From a bacterium (GTDB taxonomy: Bacteria; Desulfobacterota; Deferrisomatia; Deferrisomatales; Deferrisomataceae), in assembly GCA_027021615.1 (NCBI GenBank), contig JALUTY010000126.1:1-64000 (forward strand): a DNA stretch of 64,000 nucleotides, in the 5' to 3' direction. The notes beneath the pieces were generated by a model, which made no database searches, was not told the DNA's origin, and saw only the letters and a program-made list of their open reading frames with translations. This document shows, piece after piece, positions 6,595 through 47,044 of this stretch; the stretch's first letter is position 1, and every line of letters begins with the position of its first letter. The position numbers were made by a program, and so were the translations under genes.

Positions 6595-7224
6595 CTATCC
6601 CTCCGGGATGTAGCGAGCCTCCTCCTCCGCCTGCGGGGCGATCTCACCGTCTGCCGGGCGTTCCAGCGCCATACCGTAGTGGTAGGGGGGAAGGTCCACG
6701 ATCCCTGGAGGCAGCATCCGGAACCCGGCATCCTGTGCCCAGGCCGCGCACTCCTTAGGCCGGGGCCGGATTTCCATCGGCGGCCCCCTCGGCGTGGAAG
6801 GGTCGGGGTTCCAGTGGAGGATGCCGAGACGGCCCCCGGGGGCCAGCACCCGGAACGCCTCGCGCAGAAGCACCTCGGGCCGTTCGAAGTGAAGGATGTT
6901 GAACAGCATGGCGTAGCCGGCGCTTCCGTCCGGAAGGCCCGTGCCGTGCTCCACAAAGTCGCGCACCCGCCCCACCACGTTGGTGAGCCCCGCCGCCCGG
7001 GCCCGGGCCAGCGTGCGCTCCACCATGGCCGGTTCCACGTCCAGGGCGTGCACCGTGCCGGGGGTAATCCGGGCGGCGGGCAGGGTGAACGTCCCGTATC
7101 CGCACCCGAAGTCCACCACGTCCCCGGCCGCCCGGGTGAGGCCCAGGGCCCGCAGGACCGCCTCCGGGGTGAAGAACCCCTCCCAGACCCCCTGGTCGGG
7201 CATCCCGCTCTCGCGGATCTTCAT
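6595..7224 (-). CDS. Class I SAM-dependent methyltransferase
   Basis: A 209-residue Rossmann-fold methyltransferase. SAM motif I is VVDFGCGYGTFTLPAA (residues 36-51), the acidic motif II is HALDVEP, and post-motif residues read GYAMLFNILHFERPE. GGAG lies just before ATG 7224. It is the third gene after the OsmC and PLP-enzyme genes (gap 64 bp), probably on the same transcript from the promoter at 9159. The substrate cannot be read; its place in an ArsR-controlled sulfur/selenium operon suggests a small thiol or metalloid, which is inference. Confidence 0.75.
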   Translation of the reverse strand: MKIRESGMPDQGVWEGFFTPEAVLRALGLTRAAGDVVDFGCGYGTFTLPAARITPGTVHALDVEPAMVERTLARARAAGLTNVVGRVRDFVEHGTGLPDGSAGYAMLFNILHFERPEVLLREAFRVLAPGGRLGILHWNPDPSTPRGPPMEIRPRPKECAAWAQDAGFRMLPPGIVDLPPYHYGMALERPADGEIAPQAEEEARYIPEG

Positions 7225-7288
7225 CCGTACTCCTTGGAACCTTGCGGCCTGGCACGGTGAGGACCCCGCGCCGACGCGAGGCCGGGGC

Positions 7289-8476
7289 TCAGCCCAAAGC
7301 CTGGGCCAGGTCCCCGATCAGGTCCTCCGTGTCCTCCAACCCGATGGACAGACGCACCATGCCGTCGGGGATGCCGCGCCTGCGCCGCTCCTCCGGGCTC
7401 ATGCCGTGGTGCGTCGTGGTGATCGGCTGGGTGACCAGGCTCTCGACCCCTCCCAGGCTGGCCGCGATGGAGAAAACCTCCAGGCGGTCGACCATGGCAG
7501 CGGTGGCATCTGCTTCGCCGTCGTACACGAAGCTCAGCATCCCGCCGAAGCCGCGCATCTGCCCACGGGCGACGGCGTGCCCAGGGAACCCGGACAGCCC
7601 CGGGTAGTTCACCTTGAGGACCTTGGGATGCCGTTCGAGGAACTCGGCCACCCGCTGGGCCGACCGGTTCTGGGCCCGGACCCGGACGGAAAGGGTGCGG
7701 ATGCTCCGGGCCAGGAGAAAGGCCACCTCGGGCGCCATGATCTGGCCGAGGTTCTTCCGCCACAGGCCGATGGGGGCTAGGAGCTCCGGACTGCCGATCA
7801 CGAGCCCGCCGGTGAGATCGCTGTGGCCCCCAAGGTACTTGGTGGCGCTGTGGATCACGAGATCGGCTCCCAGAGCGAGCGGGTTCTGGTTGACCGGGGA
7901 TGCGAACGTGTTGTCCACCACCGTGAGGGCGCCGCGGTCCCGGGCGGTCCGAGCGATGTGCCGGATGTCGAACACCTCCAGGTTCGGGTTGGTGGGGGTC
8001 TCGAAGAACACGATCCGGGTGCCCTCTCGGATCGCATCGGAAAGCCGGTCCACCTCGCTTCCCAAAAGGAAAGTCGTCTCGATGCCGAGGGTGGGGAGGT
8101 TGTCGGCCAGCAATTCGAACGTGCCCCCGTACACGTCGCCGATGCACACGATGTGGTCCCCGGCGTTGCAATGGGCGAGGAATGTGGCGGCCTCGGCCGC
8201 CATGCCCGACGCGAACGCGTAGCACAGGGCACCGCCTTCCAGGTCCGCGCACTTTCTCTCCAGGGCCCGGATCGTGGGGTTCAGGCCGTAACGGGTGTAC
8301 AGGTTGCCGTCCGGGTTGCGGCCCTCCACCACATCGAGGAGTGCCCGGGTGCTCGGAAACCCGAAAGTGGAGTGGTTGTAGAGGGGGATGTGGATGCCGC
8401 CCTGGGCGTCCAGGGGTTCCCCCGCGTGCACGCACCGGGTGGAAAAACCTCTCGCCTTCGTGTCCTCTTCGCGCAT
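7289..8476 (-). CDS. Cys/Met-metabolism PLP enzyme (cystathionine gamma-synthase/lyase family)
   Basis: A 395-residue trans-sulfuration enzyme. The PLP lysine lies in LVIHSATKYLGGHSD (about residues 195-210), and the cofactor pocket motifs YSRYG-like LYTRYGLNP and VVDNTFASP are present. Members act as cystathionine gamma-synthase, cystathionine gamma-lyase, methionine gamma-lyase or O-acylhomoserine sulfhydrylase; sequence alone does not separate these. The ATG overlaps the OsmC stop (TGATG), so the two are translationally coupled. An upstream extension of the frame to 8632 lies inside the OsmC gene and is rejected; AGAGGG precedes the chosen ATG. H2S release or consumption would fit the neighbours. 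Confidence 0.85.
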   Translation of the reverse strand: MREEDTKARGFSTRCVHAGEPLDAQGGIHIPLYNHSTFGFPSTRALLDVVEGRNPDGNLYTRYGLNPTIRALERKCADLEGGALCYAFASGMAAEAATFLAHCNAGDHIVCIGDVYGGTFELLADNLPTLGIETTFLLGSEVDRLSDAIREGTRIVFFETPTNPNLEVFDIRHIARTARDRGALTVVDNTFASPVNQNPLALGADLVIHSATKYLGGHSDLTGGLVIGSPELLAPIGLWRKNLGQIMAPEVAFLLARSIRTLSVRVRAQNRSAQRVAEFLERHPKVLKVNYPGLSGFPGHAVARGQMRGFGGMLSFVYDGEADATAAMVDRLEVFSIAASLGGVESLVTQPITTTHHGMSPEERRRRGIPDGMVRLSIGLEDTEDLIGDLAQALG

Positions 8477-9087
8477 CAGGTTCCCTCTCTTCCGGTCGAA
8501 GGGGTGGGCCGGGCGGTCACCTCTCCTGCCTCGATGTTGACGGTCACGGGTCTCTGGAGGATGTCGAGAACCGGGGATGTCCTTTTCACGTGCGCCCACA
8601 GGGCTTCGATCTGTGCCGGAGCCGCGTCGCAATCGAGGTCATAGGTCACCCGCACGCTGCCGTAACCCGGCGGGGTCTGGTCGGACAGCCCCAGGAACCC
8701 ATGGAGATCAAGGTCTCCCTCCAAGGTCAAAACCAGGCGCGATACCCGCACCCCCTCTGCGGCGGCGTTGTACACAAAGCCGACCACCAGACAGGAGCCC
8801 AAAGCGTGAAGAACCGCTTCCACCGCGTTCGGCCCCGCGTTGCCGCCAAGGAGCACCGAAGGTTCGTCCCCCACGAGGATGAAGGGGGCGTGTCGTGTCG
8901 TATCCTCCTCTCCAGCTCCGAAAAACTCCTGGATCCGCGTTCTGGCGTGCCCCCCTTCGACCCACTCGGTGCTGGCTCGAAAGGTGAAAAGCGCGAGGGC
9001 CGGGTGTTCCTTGACGGCGTTAATGGTTTGTACGAGCCGGTCCACGTCGACACCGTTCACAACGTTCCTCTCGTCCGCTGTTTCCAT
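8476..9087 (-). CDS. OsmC-family protein
   Basis: A 203-residue OsmC/Ohr-fold protein. A central region contains GGNAGPNAVEAVLHALGSCL (about residues 107-126), with the conserved cysteine of this family, and the fold's VYNAAAEGV helix follows. OsmC-like proteins reduce organic peroxides or, in some cases, handle persulfides. The start at 9087 gives METADER and a leader of about 40 nt from the promoter at 9131-9159; the longer frame crosses that promoter. It is the first gene of a three-gene operon with the PLP enzyme and a methyltransferase. Confidence 0.85.
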   Translation of the reverse strand: METADERNVVNGVDVDRLVQTINAVKEHPALALFTFRASTEWVEGGHARTRIQEFFGAGEEDTTRHAPFILVGDEPSVLLGGNAGPNAVEAVLHALGSCLVVGFVYNAAAEGVRVSRLVLTLEGDLDLHGFLGLSDQTPPGYGSVRVTYDLDCDAAPAQIEALWAHVKRTSPVLDILQRPVTVNIEAGEVTARPTPSTGREGT

Positions 9088-9113
9088 GATCGTCTCTCCG
9101 CTTCCGCACAGGT

Positions 9114-9159
9114 GTATATTCGAATATTCGCATATACAGGGTCCAAGCGGGCCTGTCAA
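9114..9159 (-). promoter_or_regulatory. Promoter and ArsR-type operator of the osmC operon
   Basis: On the minus strand, TTGACA (9159-9154) is followed after 17 bp by TATATG (9136-9131). An AT-rich operator covers 9114-9137; on the plus strand it reads ATATTCGAATATTCGCATA. The same word occurs at 12123-12145 in front of the arsR gene, with the same promoter architecture. The overlap with the -10 box fits repression. Confidence 0.8.
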
Positions 9160-9288
9160 CATATCGAGAGCTCTTTCCCGGTAAACCCACATCAATCCAC
9201 GCGACCAACTGTCCCCGGCAGATCCTTCACCTGCCCTCCGTGGTTCTCCTCGTGAGCTCTACTTCCGGGCCGCCCCAGCCGTCTCCCC

Positions 9289-9774
9289 TCAGCGCAACAA
9301 CGCCCCGATCGTCTGGGCGCCGGTCCACGTGAGGGGGCCCAACAGGGCTTCCACGGGGCGGGCGAGCAGCCCCGTGTACAGCCCCACGCCCACCAGGAAT
9401 CCCGCGAACACCGCCAGGTGGAACCGGCTCCCCTCCCCGAGCCGTACGAGCAGGGTGAGGGGACAGCCCCGGCCGAGGGCGTAGCCCACGGCCTGCACGG
9501 CACCGCCGACGAGAAACAAGGCCCCCGGGTACTCGGCCCCGTGGCGGTAGCCCACGAGGTTCACCAGCCCGAACACGCAGAACCTGGAGCGCTGCACGAG
9601 CACGCCACGGGCCAGGCTCACCACGAACACCGCCGCCACCGGGAATCCCCCGGGGAAGATGCCGAAAGGCGGCTCGAGACCGGGGACCTCCGCGGTGAGC
9701 ACGTAATGCCCGAGGTTCAGGATCCCGACGGCCGCGCCCACGGCCACGGCCCGTTTCCAACGCAGTCGAACCAT
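9289..9774 (-). CDS. YeeE/YedE-family membrane protein, half-size (sulfur/selenium transport)
   Basis: A 161-residue integral membrane protein with about four hydrophobic segments. It carries the family motifs QRSRFCVFG (SRFCxxG) and GRGCPLTLLVRLGEG (GCPLxxLxRxGEG). YeeE/YedE proteins move thiosulfate or related sulfur species, and a subgroup accompanies selenium metabolism. Usual members are about twice this length, so it may work as a dimer or as one half of a pair. It follows the selenoprotein gene after 68 bp. The start at 9774 is the only ATG before the first membrane segment; its ribosome site is weak. Confidence 0.75.
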   Translation of the reverse strand: MVRLRWKRAVAVGAAVGILNLGHYVLTAEVPGLEPPFGIFPGGFPVAAVFVVSLARGVLVQRSRFCVFGLVNLVGYRHGAEYPGALFLVGGAVQAVGYALGRGCPLTLLVRLGEGSRFHLAVFAGFLVGVGLYTGLLARPVEALLGPLTWTGAQTIGALLR

Positions 9775-9842
9775 CTCTCGGGTGTTCTGTTCAAAAGGGG
9801 AGGAAACGTTTGCGTGCTTCGCCGAAGCACCGCTCAGCGGCC

Positions 9843-10850
9843 TCACGTGGCCCCCGGCTCGTGGCAACCGGCGGCCTCTCCTTCCCCGGCCGCCGGGGCC
9901 TGGGGATGCCGTCCTTTCACCTTGTCGAACAGCAGCCGGGTCTGGTGGGCCGTCACGCTCATGGCGATGGCGGTGGCGGCTTCCAACTCTTCGTCGGTGG
10001 CTCCGCTCTCCCTCGCGACCGCGAGGCTCCAGTCGGTTCAGAGCTCGCAGCCGGCCGCGAGGGACGCGGCCAGGAACAGGAGCCCCCGGGTCTTGGGCTC
10101 CAGCGCCGGGTTCGACTTCACGGCCTCGAAGAACGCCTCGAACCGCGTCATCGGATTCTCCATGTTCGTCTCCTCCACCCGGTCCGGCATCGGTCCCGGA
10201 CGCCTCCGAAGGGTCACCACGTACAGGTCCCGGGGCAGGCTGCCCTCTTCCAGCCGGTCGATGGCCGCCACCTCGTACCCCCGGGCGAGGCGGCGGACCT
10301 TCTTCTCGGTGAAGAAGTGCACCACGAACCCGCCCACCTCGTAGAGGTCCTCGCCCAGGTGGGTGCCGGCCCGAAAGTGCTTGTCGTGGTCGCTGCGCAC
10401 CGTGTACAGCACGAGCCCGCCGGGCTTGACCACCCGGTGGAGCTCGGCCAGCACGAACGCGATCTGGGCCTCGGTGAGCTCCATGCACAGGAGCATGTGG
10501 GCGTAGCACGCGTCGAACGCGCCCTCCCCGAACGGCAGGGGGTTCCGCACGTCGTGGACCGCCGCCGCGACCCGGTCCGCGAGCCCCCGGGCCCGGGCCG
10601 CCGCCTTCACCTCCCGCACGGCCTGCTCGGAGTAGTCCAGGGCCGCGACCCGCAGGCCGTTTTCCGCGAAGAACAGGGTGTCGCGGCCCTGGCCGAACCC
10701 CAACTCCAGCACCGTGCTCGCACCCTCGGCCCGGAACCGCTCCAGTGCCATACGGGCGAACTCGCTCGGCTCCTCGCCGAAGAACGCCGGCGTCCGGGCG
10801 TACACCTCGGTCCAGTGGCGCCGCTGGTCCCTGGACGGGCGTTTCTCCAT
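9843..10850 (-). CDS. Methyltransferase-AhpD-like protein with predicted selenocysteine (UGA at 10040-10038)
   Basis: Residues 1-230 form a class I SAM methyltransferase (VLELGFGQGRDTLFFA, then ALDYSEQAV). Residues 231-335 form a carboxymuconolactone decarboxylase/AhpD-like domain. The frame contains one TGA exactly where this family has its second redox cysteine: AAGCEL-U-TDWSLAVA, giving Cys268-x-x-Sec271. Downstream the frame stays open and keeps family features (ESGATDEELEAATAIAMS) to a TGA at 9845-9843. A SECIS-like hairpin follows the UGA at the right distance. AhpD-like selenoproteins with CxxU are known; the methyltransferase fusion is what is seen here. An internal ATG at 10163 has an excellent GGAGGAG site, so a separate 106-residue AhpD-like protein may also be made. 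AGGAGGA precedes ATG 10850. The substrate may be an arsenic, selenium or thiol compound. Confidence 0.8.
10011..10026 (-). promoter_or_regulatory. Bacterial SECIS-like hairpin
   Basis: Read on the minus strand, CCTCGC-GGTC-GCGAGG forms a six-bp stem with a GGUC loop. The loop begins 17 nt after the in-frame UGA (10040-10038). In the classical E. coli fdhF SECIS, the GGUCU loop lies 18 nt after its UGA. Loop sequence and spacing both match what SelB is known to recognise. Confidence 0.7.
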
Positions 10851-11723: not shown

Positions 11724-12089
11724 TCAGGCCTCGCACGCCGGGGCCACGCCCCGCTCTTGCTCGCGCAGCCGGCCTTCGCGGCGCACGTCCTCACGGTCGC
11801 GCTTGACCACCGGGTACTCGCCCCCCAGGAACTCCAAGAGCGCGGCCACCAGGGCCGGTCGCAGCAGGTAGTAGCACCGGAGCTGGCCGTCCTCGTAGAA
11901 GTCCACCAGGCGGGCCTGGCGCAGCACGGCCAGGTGCTGCGACACGTTGGGCTGGGGGATGTCCAGAAGGTCCCGGATGTCGGTCACGCACTTCACGCCC
12001 CGGGCGAGCTCCTCCAGGATCAGGAGCCGGGTGGGGTGGCCCAGGAGCCGCAGCAAGTCGGCCTTTTCCCGGATGTCCAGGTCTTTCAT
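11724..12089 (-). CDS. ArsR-family transcriptional repressor
   Basis: A 121-residue winged-helix regulator. The DNA-reading helix is IPQPNVSQHLAVLRQARLV (about residues 44-62), preceded by the HPTRLLILEEL core. Cysteines lie at 34 (GVKCVTD), 72 (LRCYYLL) and near the C-terminus (PACEA). The classic ArsR CxC arsenic motif is absent. A widely spaced pair such as C34 and C72 or the terminal Cys would suit a disulfide or persulfide sensor of the BigR/SqrR type, but this is inference. The ATG at 12089 has AGGGAGAG upstream; the frame extension to 12125 runs into the operator. It heads the operon that includes the selenoprotein and YedE genes, and its own promoter carries the operator it probably binds. 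Confidence 0.85.
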   Translation of the reverse strand: MKDLDIREKADLLRLLGHPTRLLILEELARGVKCVTDIRDLLDIPQPNVSQHLAVLRQARLVDFYEDGQLRCYYLLRPALVAALLEFLGGEYPVVKRDREDVRREGRLREQERGVAPACEA

Positions 12090-12122
12090 CTCGGTTCTCT
12101 CCCTGCCGTGTGCATCTAGGAT

Positions 12123-12169
12123 CATATTCGAATATTTGCATACTACCCTGCGCCCAAGACGCCTGTCAA
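12123..12169 (-). promoter_or_regulatory. arsR promoter with operator
   Basis: On the minus strand, TTGACA (12169-12164) is followed after 18 bp by TAGTAT (12145-12140). The operator on the plus strand reads ATATTCGAATATTTGCATA and overlaps the -10 box. Both this promoter and the osmC promoter also share TTGACAGGC and CTTGG in the spacer, so they look like duplicated regulatory regions. Confidence 0.8.
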
Positions 12170-12239: not shown

Positions 12240-12914
12240 TCACCCCGGCACCACCCGGCCGTCCCGGATGGTGACGGTCCGTTCGGCCAGGGCGGCCACC
12301 GTGTCGGAGTGGGTGACGATGACCACGGTCTTGCCCCGGGCGTGCACGGCCCGGACCTGCTCCAGCAGATCCTCCTCGGACCGGCTGTCCAGGTTGCCGG
12401 TGGGCTCGTCCATGAGCAGCAGGTCCGGGTCGTTGGCCAGGGCCCGGGCGATGGCCACCCGCTGGCGCTGGCCGCCCGAGAGCTGGTTCGGCTTGGCGTG
12501 GAGCTTGTCCTCGAGCCCCACCAGGCGAAGGAGCTCCCGGGCCCGGGCCTCCTGCTCCCGGCGGGGAACCCCGGCCAGGAGCATGGCGGTCTGTACGTTC
12601 TCCAGGGCCGTGAGCATCGGCAGCAGGTTGAAGAACTGGAACACGAACCCCAGGCGGCGGCTTCGGATCCCGGCCAGGCGCCTTGGAGACGCCGCGGTGA
12701 GGTCCTCTCCGTCCAGGTACACCCTTCCGCTGGTGGGACGGTCGAGCCCCCCCAGCAGGTGCAGCAGCGTGCTCTTGCCGTGGCCGGAGGGGCCCATGAT
12801 GCAGGTGAGGCTGCCCCGGGGGATCTCCAGGGTGACGTCCTCCAGGGCCACCGTGCGGTAGCCGCCGTCGTAGACCTTGGTGAGACCCTCTGCGCGAAGG
12901 ATGGGATCACTCAT
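12240..12914 (-). CDS. ABC transporter ATP-binding protein (LolD/MacB type)
   Basis: A 224-residue ATPase. The Walker A motif is GPSGHGKST (about 41-49), the signature is [15 protein letters not shown] and Walker B is [12 protein letters not shown]. The H in place of the usual second small residue of Walker A is mildly unusual. The gene overlaps the permease by 8 bp and is the last gene of the operon led by the ArsR-type regulator at 14527. MacB/LolD-type systems do not import solutes; they extract or export substrates by mechanotransmission. Confidence 0.85.
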   Translation of the reverse strand: MSDPILRAEGLTKVYDGGYRTVALEDVTLEIPRGSLTCIMGPSGHGKSTLLHLLGGLDRPTSGRVYLDGEDLTAASPRRLAGIRSRRLGFVFQFFNLLPMLTALENVQTAMLLAGVPRREQEARARELLRLVGLEDKLHAKPNQLSGGQRQRVAIARALANDPDLLLMDEPTGNLDSRSEEDLLEQVRAVHARGKTVVIVTHSDTVAALAERTVTIRDGRVVPG

Positions 12915-14064
12915 AGCGGATCGCCTCCACGGGGCTCAGGCGGGCGGCCCGCAGGGCGGGGTACACGCCTGACAAAGACGCGACCAGCACCGCGAACACC
13001 AGGGCCTGGATGGTGATGCCCAGGTCGAACACGCTCACGCTCTGCTCGCTTCCGACGAACGCGGTGAACTCGTTCTGGCCGATGTAGGGCGCCGCAAAGT
13101 ACGAGAACGCGAACCCCGCCACCACGCCCGCGATCCCTCCGAGCAGCCCGTACACGGCCGACTCGCCCACGAACACCGAGAACACCGTGCCCCTCCCGGC
13201 GCCCAGGGCACCGAGGATGCCGATCTCCCGCCTGCGCTCGTAGATCGCGGTCATCATGGTGTTGGTGATGCCGAAGCACGCGGCGAGCACGGCCACGGCT
13301 GCGATCAGCTGGAGGGCGTTGCCCACGCTGCCAACGATGGCCAGCACCGAGCGCAGGAGCTGCTTGTCCGACACCACGTCCACGTCGGCCGCGGACTGGA
13401 TCGCGGCGATGTAGTCGTCGGTGCGGCCGATGTCGTCCACCCTGACCGCCACGAACGACACCTTGTCCCCGGCGCCGTAGAGCCTCTGGGCCACGGCGAG
13501 GTCCATGTACACGGCCAGGTCGTCCCGGTTGCCCACCTGCTCCAGGATCCCGCTCACGGCGAACTCCTGGCCCCGGATCCGCACCGTGTCCCCGACCGCC
13601 AGCCGGAACCTGTCCGAGATCCCCGACCCCACCACCACGTGGGAGCCGTCGAGCCGGTAGTCTCCCCGGGCCACGCGCCAGTTCTTGAACGCCCGCATCC
13701 GCTCCGGCAGGATCCCCACCAGGGGGACCGGCTGGTTGTGGAGGACCGCCCGCTGGGTGAGGTACGGCACCGCTTCGAGCCCGCCGATCCGCTCGATCGC
13801 TCGTACGGTCTCGCTAGGGATCGCCTCGGGCAGGGACTCGCCGGTGAGTACCGAGATCTGCTCGTACGCGCACCAGCCCCGGGGCGTGACCACCAGGTTG
13901 GCGCCGAGCACGTCGGCCTGCTTCCGGATCTCCGCTTCCAGACCGGTGCCCAGGGACAGCAGGGTCACCACCGACGCGATCCCCACGGCGATCGCCGACA
14001 GGGTGAAGACAAACCGGCTCCTGCGGCGGGTCAGGTTCTTCCACACGAGCTTCCAGTAGCTCAT
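12907..14064 (-). CDS. FtsX/MacB-like ABC transporter permease
   Basis: A 385-residue permease with one N-terminal membrane helix (FVFTLSAIAVGIASVVTLLSL), a large periplasmic MacB_PCD-like domain (about 45-260) and three C-terminal helices. The C-terminus (YPALRAARLSPVEAIRYE) is typical of the LolC/MacB family. It overlaps the upstream gene by ATGA and the ATPase gene by 8 bp. The frame extension to 14193 lies inside the upstream gene. The transported substrate is unknown. Confidence 0.85.
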   Translation of the reverse strand: MSYWKLVWKNLTRRRSRFVFTLSAIAVGIASVVTLLSLGTGLEAEIRKQADVLGANLVVTPRGWCAYEQISVLTGESLPEAIPSETVRAIERIGGLEAVPYLTQRAVLHNQPVPLVGILPERMRAFKNWRVARGDYRLDGSHVVVGSGISDRFRLAVGDTVRIRGQEFAVSGILEQVGNRDDLAVYMDLAVAQRLYGAGDKVSFVAVRVDDIGRTDDYIAAIQSAADVDVVSDKQLLRSVLAIVGSVGNALQLIAAVAVLAACFGITNTMMTAIYERRREIGILGALGAGRGTVFSVFVGESAVYGLLGGIAGVVAGFAFSYFAAPYIGQNEFTAFVGSEQSVSVFDLGITIQALVFAVLVASLSGVYPALRAARLSPVEAIRYE

Positions 14065-14444
14065 TTGACCCGGACCTCCCGGGCCCGGAGCACGAACCCC
14101 CCGGCGCCGGCCGCATTTTTCTCGACGACGCCCTCCACCTCGACCACGTCCCGCTTCTTGGGGAGCTTCCCGTCGTAGAGCACCGTGAGCCACTTGGGCG
14201 CGCAGCTCACGCTGCGGCAGCCCCGGTACTCCCGGTAGTCCACGAGCTCGAACCGGCCTCTGCCGACATCGGTCGCCATGACCCCGCCCCGCACGGTGAT
14301 CACGCCCTGGTACGCGAACGGGTCCGCGAGCACGTCGAACACGTCGAGTCCCTTTGCGGACGGGAACCCGAACCCGGCGAACGCAGAGCCGGCGAGGAAG
14401 GCGAGCCCAAGGGCGAAAAAAGAGAGACGGATTCGGTGGTGCAT
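14061..14444 (-). CDS. Exported small protein, OB-fold-like, of the ABC operon
   Basis: A 127-residue protein with a signal peptide (IRLSFFALGLAFLAGSAFA) and a short beta-rich domain. A Cys pair sits in YRGCRSVSCAPKWLTVLYDG. The strand pattern with VEVEGVVEKN resembles nucleic-acid-binding-fold periplasmic proteins; this is a loose similarity. GGAGGG precedes the ATG. The gene overlaps the permease by 4 bp, so it is probably a periplasmic partner of the transporter. Confidence 0.65.
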   Translation of the reverse strand: MHHRIRLSFFALGLAFLAGSAFAGFGFPSAKGLDVFDVLADPFAYQGVITVRGGVMATDVGRGRFELVDYREYRGCRSVSCAPKWLTVLYDGKLPKKRDVVEVEGVVEKNAAGAGGFVLRAREVRVK

Positions 14445-14526
14445 GGTGAAACCCTCCGGATGGGTTGGCGTCCCGCCGGGCGCCGCCGGCAGGGCCGCGC
14501 TGGGTGCGGCTGGCTGTGGGCCCCCA

Positions 14527-14907
14527 TCAGCCCCGGCGGGCCTCGGCATCCTCGGCCAGGCACAGCCCGTACGACAGGAGCTGGACCACGCACGGGTCCA
14601 CGATGCGGTAGCACACCTGGGTGCCCCGGCGCTCGGGCTCCACGATTCCCCGGTCCGCGAGCCGCTGGAGCTGGTTCGACACGGCTTGGGGCTTCATACC
14701 GAGTTCGTCGGCGAGTTCACCCACGCACAGCCCGGGGGTGCGCACCAGGGCGTGGAGCAGCCGGACCCGGGTGTCGTTGGCCAGAATCTTGAACATCGCC
14801 GCCACCTGTCGGGCCTCCCCGGGGTCGAGCAGCGGGCGCTCCTCCACCGGAGTCTTGGCCGTGCAGGGGTCGAGCATGGGAAACAGGTCGGAGCCGGGGC
14901 GGGACAT
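14527..14907 (-). CDS. ArsR/SmtB-family metal sensor
   Basis: A 126-residue winged-helix protein with core NDTRVRLLHALVRTPGLCVG and reading helix MKPQAVSNQLQRLADRGIV. Five cysteines (15, 61, 99, 106, 116) lie in positions that could build thiolate metal sites, notably DPC near the N-terminus and DPC-x9-C in the last helix. This differs from the repressor at 11724. AGGAGGT precedes the ATG. With the exported protein and the ABC pair downstream it forms a likely metal- or metalloid-responsive export operon. Confidence 0.8.
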   Translation of the reverse strand: MSRPGSDLFPMLDPCTAKTPVEERPLLDPGEARQVAAMFKILANDTRVRLLHALVRTPGLCVGELADELGMKPQAVSNQLQRLADRGIVEPERRGTQVCYRIVDPCVVQLLSYGLCLAEDAEARRG

Positions 14908-46427: not shown

Positions 46428-46564
46428 GGACGCTCCTCTCCTGATCGACGCACGGCCCGAAGTCGGACCGGCGGGGGGTGTGGAAGGCGGTTCGGCGGGA
46501 AGCTCCCCAGGAGCGGGGACGGAGAGGAACGCTTACGGGAAGGCGAGGGGAACAAGTCCCCCGC

Positions 46565-46732
46565 TCGTGCCGTGTTCCTTAAGGTTCGGTTGAACCTCGG
46601 ATGGAAAGGTGGGCGCCCTGTGGCCGCTTCGTCGGTTCCCCGCGAAGGGGAGCACGGTCCACGGCCAGGGAAGGCTCCCGTCTACCGTTGCGTTGGCTCA
46701 ACAGCTTCCATTCGGAATCACGAACACAGCAG
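46565..46732 (-). ncRNA. ssrS: Probable 6S RNA
   Basis: The 290-bp gap between zapA and rny holds no gene but can fold as one long hairpin: closing stem CTGTGTTC (46729-46722) with GAACACGG (46577-46570), an internal stem CCCTG-GCCG with CGGC-CACAGGG, and a tip CCCC-TTCGC-GGGG. A small 3' hairpin AGGTTC-AACC-GAACCT precedes the closing strand, as in 6S RNA. Size (about 170 nt) and position directly after zapA are those of 6S RNA, which binds RNA polymerase in stationary phase. The 5' end overlaps the zapA stop slightly. It was assigned by hand folding only. Confidence 0.55.
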
Positions 46733-47044
46733 GGGAACCACCTCTTCTTCGGCATCCGGGTGTGCCTCGGGCACCCGGCTGTCGATGCGCCTCACCAGTT
46801 CGGCACACCGACTCTCGACGCACTCCAGGAGTCTGCGCTGGTTCTCCTGTTCATCCAAAAGGTCGCTGGCCAGCTCCAGGGCGGCCAGCACGGCGATCTG
46901 CACCGTTGCCACCGAACGGGTCTGGGCCGCGACCTCGCGCATCCGCGCGTCCACCAACCGAGCCACGCGTTGTACGTGTTCCTCGGCCGCCTGGCTCCGA
47001 AGCCCATAGGTCTGGCCGAAGATCTCGACCCGGTAGGCGTTCAC
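46718..47044 (-). CDS. zapA: Cell division protein ZapA
   Basis: A 108-residue protein. The N-terminal region (VNAYRVEIFGQTYGLRSQAA) and VARLVDARMREVAAQTRSVA with a following helix match ZapA, which bundles FtsZ filaments. GTG 47044 overlaps the zapB-like gene by GTGA. The probable 6S RNA gene follows at once. Confidence 0.85.
   Translation of the reverse strand: MNAYRVEIFGQTYGLRSQAAEEHVQRVARLVDARMREVAAQTRSVATVQIAVLAALELASDLLDEQENQRRLLECVESRCAELVRRIDSRVPEAHPDAEEEVVPLLCS

Follow-up and report, generated by a model that had tools for sequence, protein, structure and literature searches.

A predicted MduS-family double selenoprotein, and AhpD-less relatives that retain its C-terminal selenocysteine tail

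The closest described system is the selenoprotein family MduS, which a 2026 review (PMC13188914) lists with a CxxU motif and two selenocysteines (Sec) and credits to Haft & Tolstoy (2025, mSystems 10:e0141724, as cited there). The family model, NF045649 ('methyltransferase domain-containing selenoprotein MduS', '2X_seleno_MduS'), agrees with the protein described here in its domains, its CxxU site and its two Sec, with no essential difference, and full-length members are ~50–95% identical to our protein. Other families share part of this architecture. Akin to MduS, the arsenite methyltransferase/AhpD domain selenoprotein with three Sec (NF041537) joins a methyltransferase to a related AhpD CxxU domain, but its methyltransferase is ArsM; the MduS protein scored 95.8 against this model (cut-off 510), mostly from the AhpD part, and the match ended short of the MduS tail, with no U-x-x-stop tail matched. 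The methyltransferase/UXPK-star double selenoprotein (NF047649) resembles MduS in having a methyltransferase, two Sec and, judging by its name, a tail of the U-x-x-stop type, although the score was only 29.5 (cut-off 460), its tail is UXPK as opposed to the UG[RVK] of MduS, and there was no AhpD match. Finally, proteins of the GSU3128 family (NF041047) and AhpD/CMD proteins (PF02627) carry a C-x-x-U/C redox site at a helix start, as MduS does, but are small and stand-alone, without a methyltransferase or a Sec tail.

In the window, that is, the whole stretch of 64,000 nucleotides analysed here, the mduS gene occupies positions 9834–10850 of the minus strand. It runs from an ATG at 10850, which is preceded by a good ribosome site (AGGAGG), to a TGA at 9836–9834, and encodes 338 residues including Sec271 and Sec336, as supported by the match to NF045649 and by 12 aligned full-length homologues. 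An earlier note on this DNA had placed the gene at 9843–10850 and stated no strand; its start was correct, whereas the true end is the TGA at 9836–9834, and reading 9843–10850 on the plus strand makes no sense and was rejected. Under the standard code the frame closes at TGA 10040–10038 after 270 residues. Read through this codon, it stays open as far as 9843, and after the TGA at 9845–9843 just two sense codons (GGC CGC) precede the third TGA at 9836–9834. The protein scored 497.3 bits against NF045649 (cut-off 380), with a match spanning protein residues 4–336 and profile positions 2–336 of 338, so that the second U is covered. The window gene is a further member of an already catalogued family whose function is uncharacterised and, from its sequence, very probably encodes a double selenoprotein. 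The threefold description in the earlier note of a selenoprotein, a methyltransferase fusion and an AhpD-like CxxU domain holds, and the read-through gene is confirmed. The prediction that a gene caller would cut the protein applies to callers that halt at TGA, which truncate mduS at its active site, but not to the current NCBI family models, which recognise it as MduS.

The N-terminal part of the protein (residues 1–215; 10206–10850, minus strand) is a class I SAM-dependent methyltransferase domain (PF13649, 1.2e-17), and a Foldseek search against the PDB returned generic class I methyltransferases, TehB among them, without a hint of the substrate. It is followed by an AhpD/CMD-like domain (9910–10163, minus strand) bearing the site C268-E-L-U271, for which AlphaFold predicted helices at residues 233–311; PF02627 gave 45.9 bits on the nested product considered below. 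On the whole mduS product, PF02627 scored 42 bits with read-through as opposed to 19.5 bits when the protein is cut at TGA 10038 (gathering score 23), in keeping with the earlier claim that the sequence past this TGA fits the AhpD/CMD family. The AlphaFold model has a mean pLDDT of 80.7 overall, with both domains well folded and a disordered C-terminal tail (pLDDT <50); the tail being disordered, the model shows no docking site for it. We take the AhpD of Mycobacterium tuberculosis to have a His/Glu proton relay beside its CxxC. In the homologue alignment, which M. tuberculosis AhpD itself lies outside, no His follows U271 (CELUTDW).

Homologues were collected from one scan of genome contigs and from whole genomes, and the 12 full-length proteins that were aligned reach down to 50% identity. 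Both in-frame TGAs are kept in all 12. The first (10038–10040, minus strand; Sec271) aligns in every case to the second Cys of the CxxC site, where the earlier note had put it; that note had, however, counted a single in-frame TGA and one Sec, and had missed the second Sec together with its SECIS, as well as where the protein really ends. A true stop at the position of TGA 10040–10038, which it had named as evidence against read-through, occurs in no full-length homologue (n = 12), and none of these has a Cys in place of Sec; a Cys counterpart of Sec271 is known from the CMD family. The second in-frame TGA (9843–9845, minus strand) almost certainly encodes Sec336 in a C-terminal tail, GATUGR, of the sequence ...PGATUGR, and recognising it fixes the true C-terminus. 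All 12 full-length homologues end in G-x-T-U-[GS]-[RVK] before a true stop, either TGA, as in the window (9834–9836, minus strand), or, in several of them, TAA; counting the short forms described below, G-x-T-U-[GS]-x-stop recurs in 15 of 15 members. One further locus (L097/L101; G437:C1:2097307-2098310) holds a full MduS spread over two frames with both TGAs intact, which may be a frameshifted pseudogene or a sequence error. The viral contigs searched held no relative, and the plasmids searched held stand-alone Streptomyces methyltransferases only.

The machinery for decoding UGA was sought with family models in the organism's own genome (4.25 Mb, 134 contigs), which yielded selA (583 bits), selB (337 bits), selD (356 bits) and a tRNA-Sec with anticodon UCA (72.6 bits, also called by ARAGORN). 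The genes selA, selB and selC, whose absence the earlier note would have counted against its reading, are thus all present, as is selD. SelB was also over its cut-off in 12/12 other mduS-bearing genomes searched for it. The selD gene of this genome (L080; G000:C78:237566-238486) has one in-frame TGA, and its product, selenophosphate synthetase, appears to be a selenoprotein too. In comparisons with the two nearest relatives, the segment between the two UGAs had a pN/pS of 0.11 (G001) and 0.34 (G003), which resembles the methyltransferase part with 0.49 and 0.31, respectively; the ratio climbs to 0.5–0.6 in more distant pairs, where synonymous differences are high. These values indicate that the inter-UGA segment is under purifying selection. 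Taken together, the two conserved codons, the conserved hairpins, the complete Sec machinery and the family membership argue, at the level of sequence, for Sec at both positions.

Each UGA is followed by a SECIS-like hairpin. Hairpin 1, CCTCGC-GGTC-GCGAGG (10011–10026, minus strand), has its loop 17 nt after the UGA, at a conserved position, and is the 6-bp stem with a GGUC loop (CCUCGC-GGUC-GCGAGG in the RNA) that had been pointed out before. In a set of nine distinct sequences, pairing held in 90.5% of cells, versus 32–56% when the partner was slid, and two pairs were altered on both sides; this conservation is not independent, because hairpin 1 sits in coding sequence. Hairpin 2, GTGCTTC-GGC-GAAGCAC (9814–9830, minus strand), lies in non-coding sequence 3′ of the true stop, with 19 nt from UGA to loop. 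It is present in 15/15 sequences, with its loop 16–20 nt past the UGA, and shows compensatory changes at pair 3 (UA to CG), pair 6 (UA to CG or GC) and pair 7 (GC to CG, AU or UA); these pairs were counted by a script around the loop, MAFFT having misregistered the loops of 3 or 4 nt. Any single hairpin is weak evidence, because 8.3% of all window TGAs have a properly placed hairpin of at least 6 bp and 2.6% one of at least 7 bp. Shuffling tests confined to the window sequence were not significant, hairpin 1 being modest (z −1.56) and hairpin 2 no better than the shuffles (z 0.45), and folding energy alone was rejected as proof of either hairpin. The case for both as candidate SECIS elements rests on conservation across homologues. 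The window and G001, a genome of the same genus, share 30 identical nt from the stop through hairpin 2 and then diverge totally, and the end of shared sequence just past hairpin 2 would point to a lineage-specific deletion or rearrangement. A DJ-1/PfpI gene, which comes next after MduS in five homologous loci (L083, L084, L086, L087 and L089), is missing in the window (9292–9845, minus strand), where a YedE-like gene stands instead and hairpin 2 is retained.

Other readings of the two TGAs have to be weighed against this evidence. As the earlier note had observed, there is a ribosome-site-like motif at 10163: GGAGGAG-N7-ATG (10161–10177, minus strand; Met230) lies in the interdomain linker ahead of the AhpD domain, and initiation there would produce a nested AhpD protein of 109 residues with both UGAs inside. 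A GGAG/GAGG-type motif followed by ATG, or in one homologue (L042) by GTG (Val), is kept in 12/12 full-length genes although the linker is otherwise variable, and the start is gone in the AhpD-less L095 and L057, though retained in L094; these observations are consistent with dual expression of the fusion and of a nested AhpD–Sec-tail product. The same nucleotides, however, spell E-E-x-x-M in the protein, and most of these genes use GAG more often than GAA for Glu (the product of the GAG fractions is 0.015, before allowing for relatedness), so that constraint at the protein level could explain the conservation, and we advance dual expression as a tentative proposal. The nested product would need the same read-through, because TGA 10038 lies within the AhpD active site. 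The ribosome-site-like motif with ATG or GTG before the AhpD domain in 12/12 genes, and the existence of stand-alone methyltransferase homologues among Actinomycetota and within the phylum of the window, would also fit TGA 10038 being a true stop, with a free methyltransferase and a separate AhpD protein started at 10163; yet the frame of that AhpD protein itself holds TGA 10038 at its active site, and purifying selection past the TGA contradicts, for this as the sole mode, an AhpD domain that is never finished, which leaves the reading with hardly any credence. We likewise consider it very improbable that the product is a single selenoprotein with Sec at TGA 10038 only and an ordinary stop at TGA 9843. 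A stop at this point, behind the AhpD helices and a linker of low complexity, would be unremarkable, and three residues, Sec included, are at stake, but the tail G-x-T-U-[GS]-x-stop in 15/15 members with differing true stops (TGA or TAA), the conserved hairpin with compensatory changes 3′ of the second TGA, the reach of NF045649 over the second U together with its '2X' name, and the count of two Sec in the review (PMC13188914) all speak for the second Sec. With identity and recoding considered jointly, the best explanation, and a likely one, is mduS with both UGAs read as Sec.

Short forms lacking the AhpD domain were found at three loci (L057:803-1579, L094:1483-2250 and L095:1459-2226, minus strand), in three genera and two families of the same phylum as the window. 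Each consists of the methyltransferase domain, a short linker and the tail PG[KR]TUG[VT]-stop with a downstream hairpin, and thus has a single Sec; no CMD domain was matched in any of them, and linker remnants of the full form are present in L094 and L095. The Sec tail of L057 could be missed in annotation, since its score against NF045649 (332.8 bits) falls under the cut-off of 380. Stand-alone methyltransferases without a Sec tail (L019–L037, L058–L066, L096, L098 and L099), 44–56% identical to the N-terminal domain of MduS, were found in Actinomycetota, on a Chloroflexota contig and in the same phylum; beside L096 lie a SHOCT gene and a sequence that appears ArsR-like by eye. In a tree of the methyltransferase domain, the 15 tail-bearing proteins grouped in a single clade (100/99) that excluded 32 stand-alone methyltransferases, which argues that the tail belongs with the methyltransferase. 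Within this clade L057 fell outside the 14 other tail-bearers (90/89, not decisive), and L094 and L095 within the full-length group. The simplest reading of this pattern would be a single gain of the Sec tail by the methyltransferase, with AhpD either added later and lost at least once or lost two to three times. From this order of gain and loss, it is most likely the methyltransferase that the tail Sec serves. It is conceivable, and we suggest it with reserve, that the functional unit is the methyltransferase with its Sec tail (U-G-x-stop) and not the CxxU domain, and that full-length genes may also yield a free AhpD–Sec-tail protein via the internal start; if so, two selenoproteins would arise from the same message of a gene with two SECIS elements. 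As far as we checked, in literature beyond the primary paper on MduS (Haft & Tolstoy 2025), which lay outside the search, no description of an AhpD-less MduS was found, and both this single-Sec form and the conserved internal start appear to be new. With the tail Sec but not the CxxU Sec, the short forms allow the two roles to be told apart and offer a handle on an uncharacterised family.

Upstream of mduS are an ArsR/SmtB metalloregulator (11724–12125, minus strand; NF033788, 77 bits against a cut-off of 55), also found beside MduS in several homologues, and a set comprising an ABC exporter ATPase of LolD/MacB type with a MacB/LolC-type permease, a small secreted protein and a second ArsR (12240–14907, minus strand), which is likewise present in L083 and L086; other upstream neighbours encode a SHOCT protein and an LTXXQ-like protein. 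Downstream are a YeeE/YedE-type protein (a weak match, 19.6 bits) and, at 6595–9195 on the minus strand, an OsmC-like protein, a PLP enzyme resembling Cys/Met gamma-lyase and another methyltransferase; this PLP enzyme and second methyltransferase also adjoin MduS in L084 and L086. Some of these genes likewise accompany MduS in L083, L084, L086 (which also has a nucleoside phosphorylase-like gene) and the short form L057, whereas none of the mapped neighbours was found next to it in L085, L102–L105 and L018. We rejected a metalloid operon as a fixed rule, the neighbours being shared by the window, L083, L086, L084 and L057 but not by L085 or L102–L105.

In light of these features we tentatively propose that MduS could be a SAM-dependent methyltransferase of soft metalloids or chalcogens that uses the tail selenolate as substrate ligand and the CxxU site as redox partner. 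SelB and tRNA-Sec(UCA) very probably decode both in-frame UGAs as Sec, each UGA served by its own SECIS hairpin, the second of them beyond the real stop codon, giving a class I methyltransferase followed by an AhpD-like domain of helices that carries the redox pair C-x-x-U, and by a disordered arm ending in U-G-R. The enzyme would methylate a soft, thiol-reactive species, our best guess being a thiophilic metalloid or chalcogen; the tail selenolate might bind this substrate and present it to, or remove it from, the methyltransferase site, and the CxxU pair might hold the tail or the substrate reduced. Since the tail persists where AhpD is absent, the tail and the methyltransferase would make up the core, with the AhpD module as an accessory. 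Bearing on a metalloid substrate are the ArsR regulators adjoining mduS, the LolD/MacB-type exporter and the match of the AhpD domain to NF041537 (79 bits); MduS met no ArsM model at its cut-off, its methyltransferase domain resembling generic class I methyltransferases. The main rival, which we regard as rather unlikely, is a role in reactive-sulfur or thiol metabolism instead of metalloid detoxification, with methylation of, for example, thiols or (hydro)persulfides and the CxxU site acting as a thiol oxidoreductase. It would suit the YeeE/YedE-type (19.6 bits, weak), OsmC-like and gamma-lyase-like neighbours in the window, as well as the gamma-lyase and second methyltransferase that flank MduS in L084 and L086. 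Yet such sulfur neighbours are absent from some loci, the ArsR regulators scored 50.8 against the sulfite sensor BigR, far under its cut-off of 155, and the pairing of a related AhpD domain with ArsM in NF041537 points to arsenic.

Elsewhere in the window, a 6S RNA at 46554–46738 on the minus strand (RF00013, 80.8 bits against a gathering score of 46.4) was the sole Rfam match.
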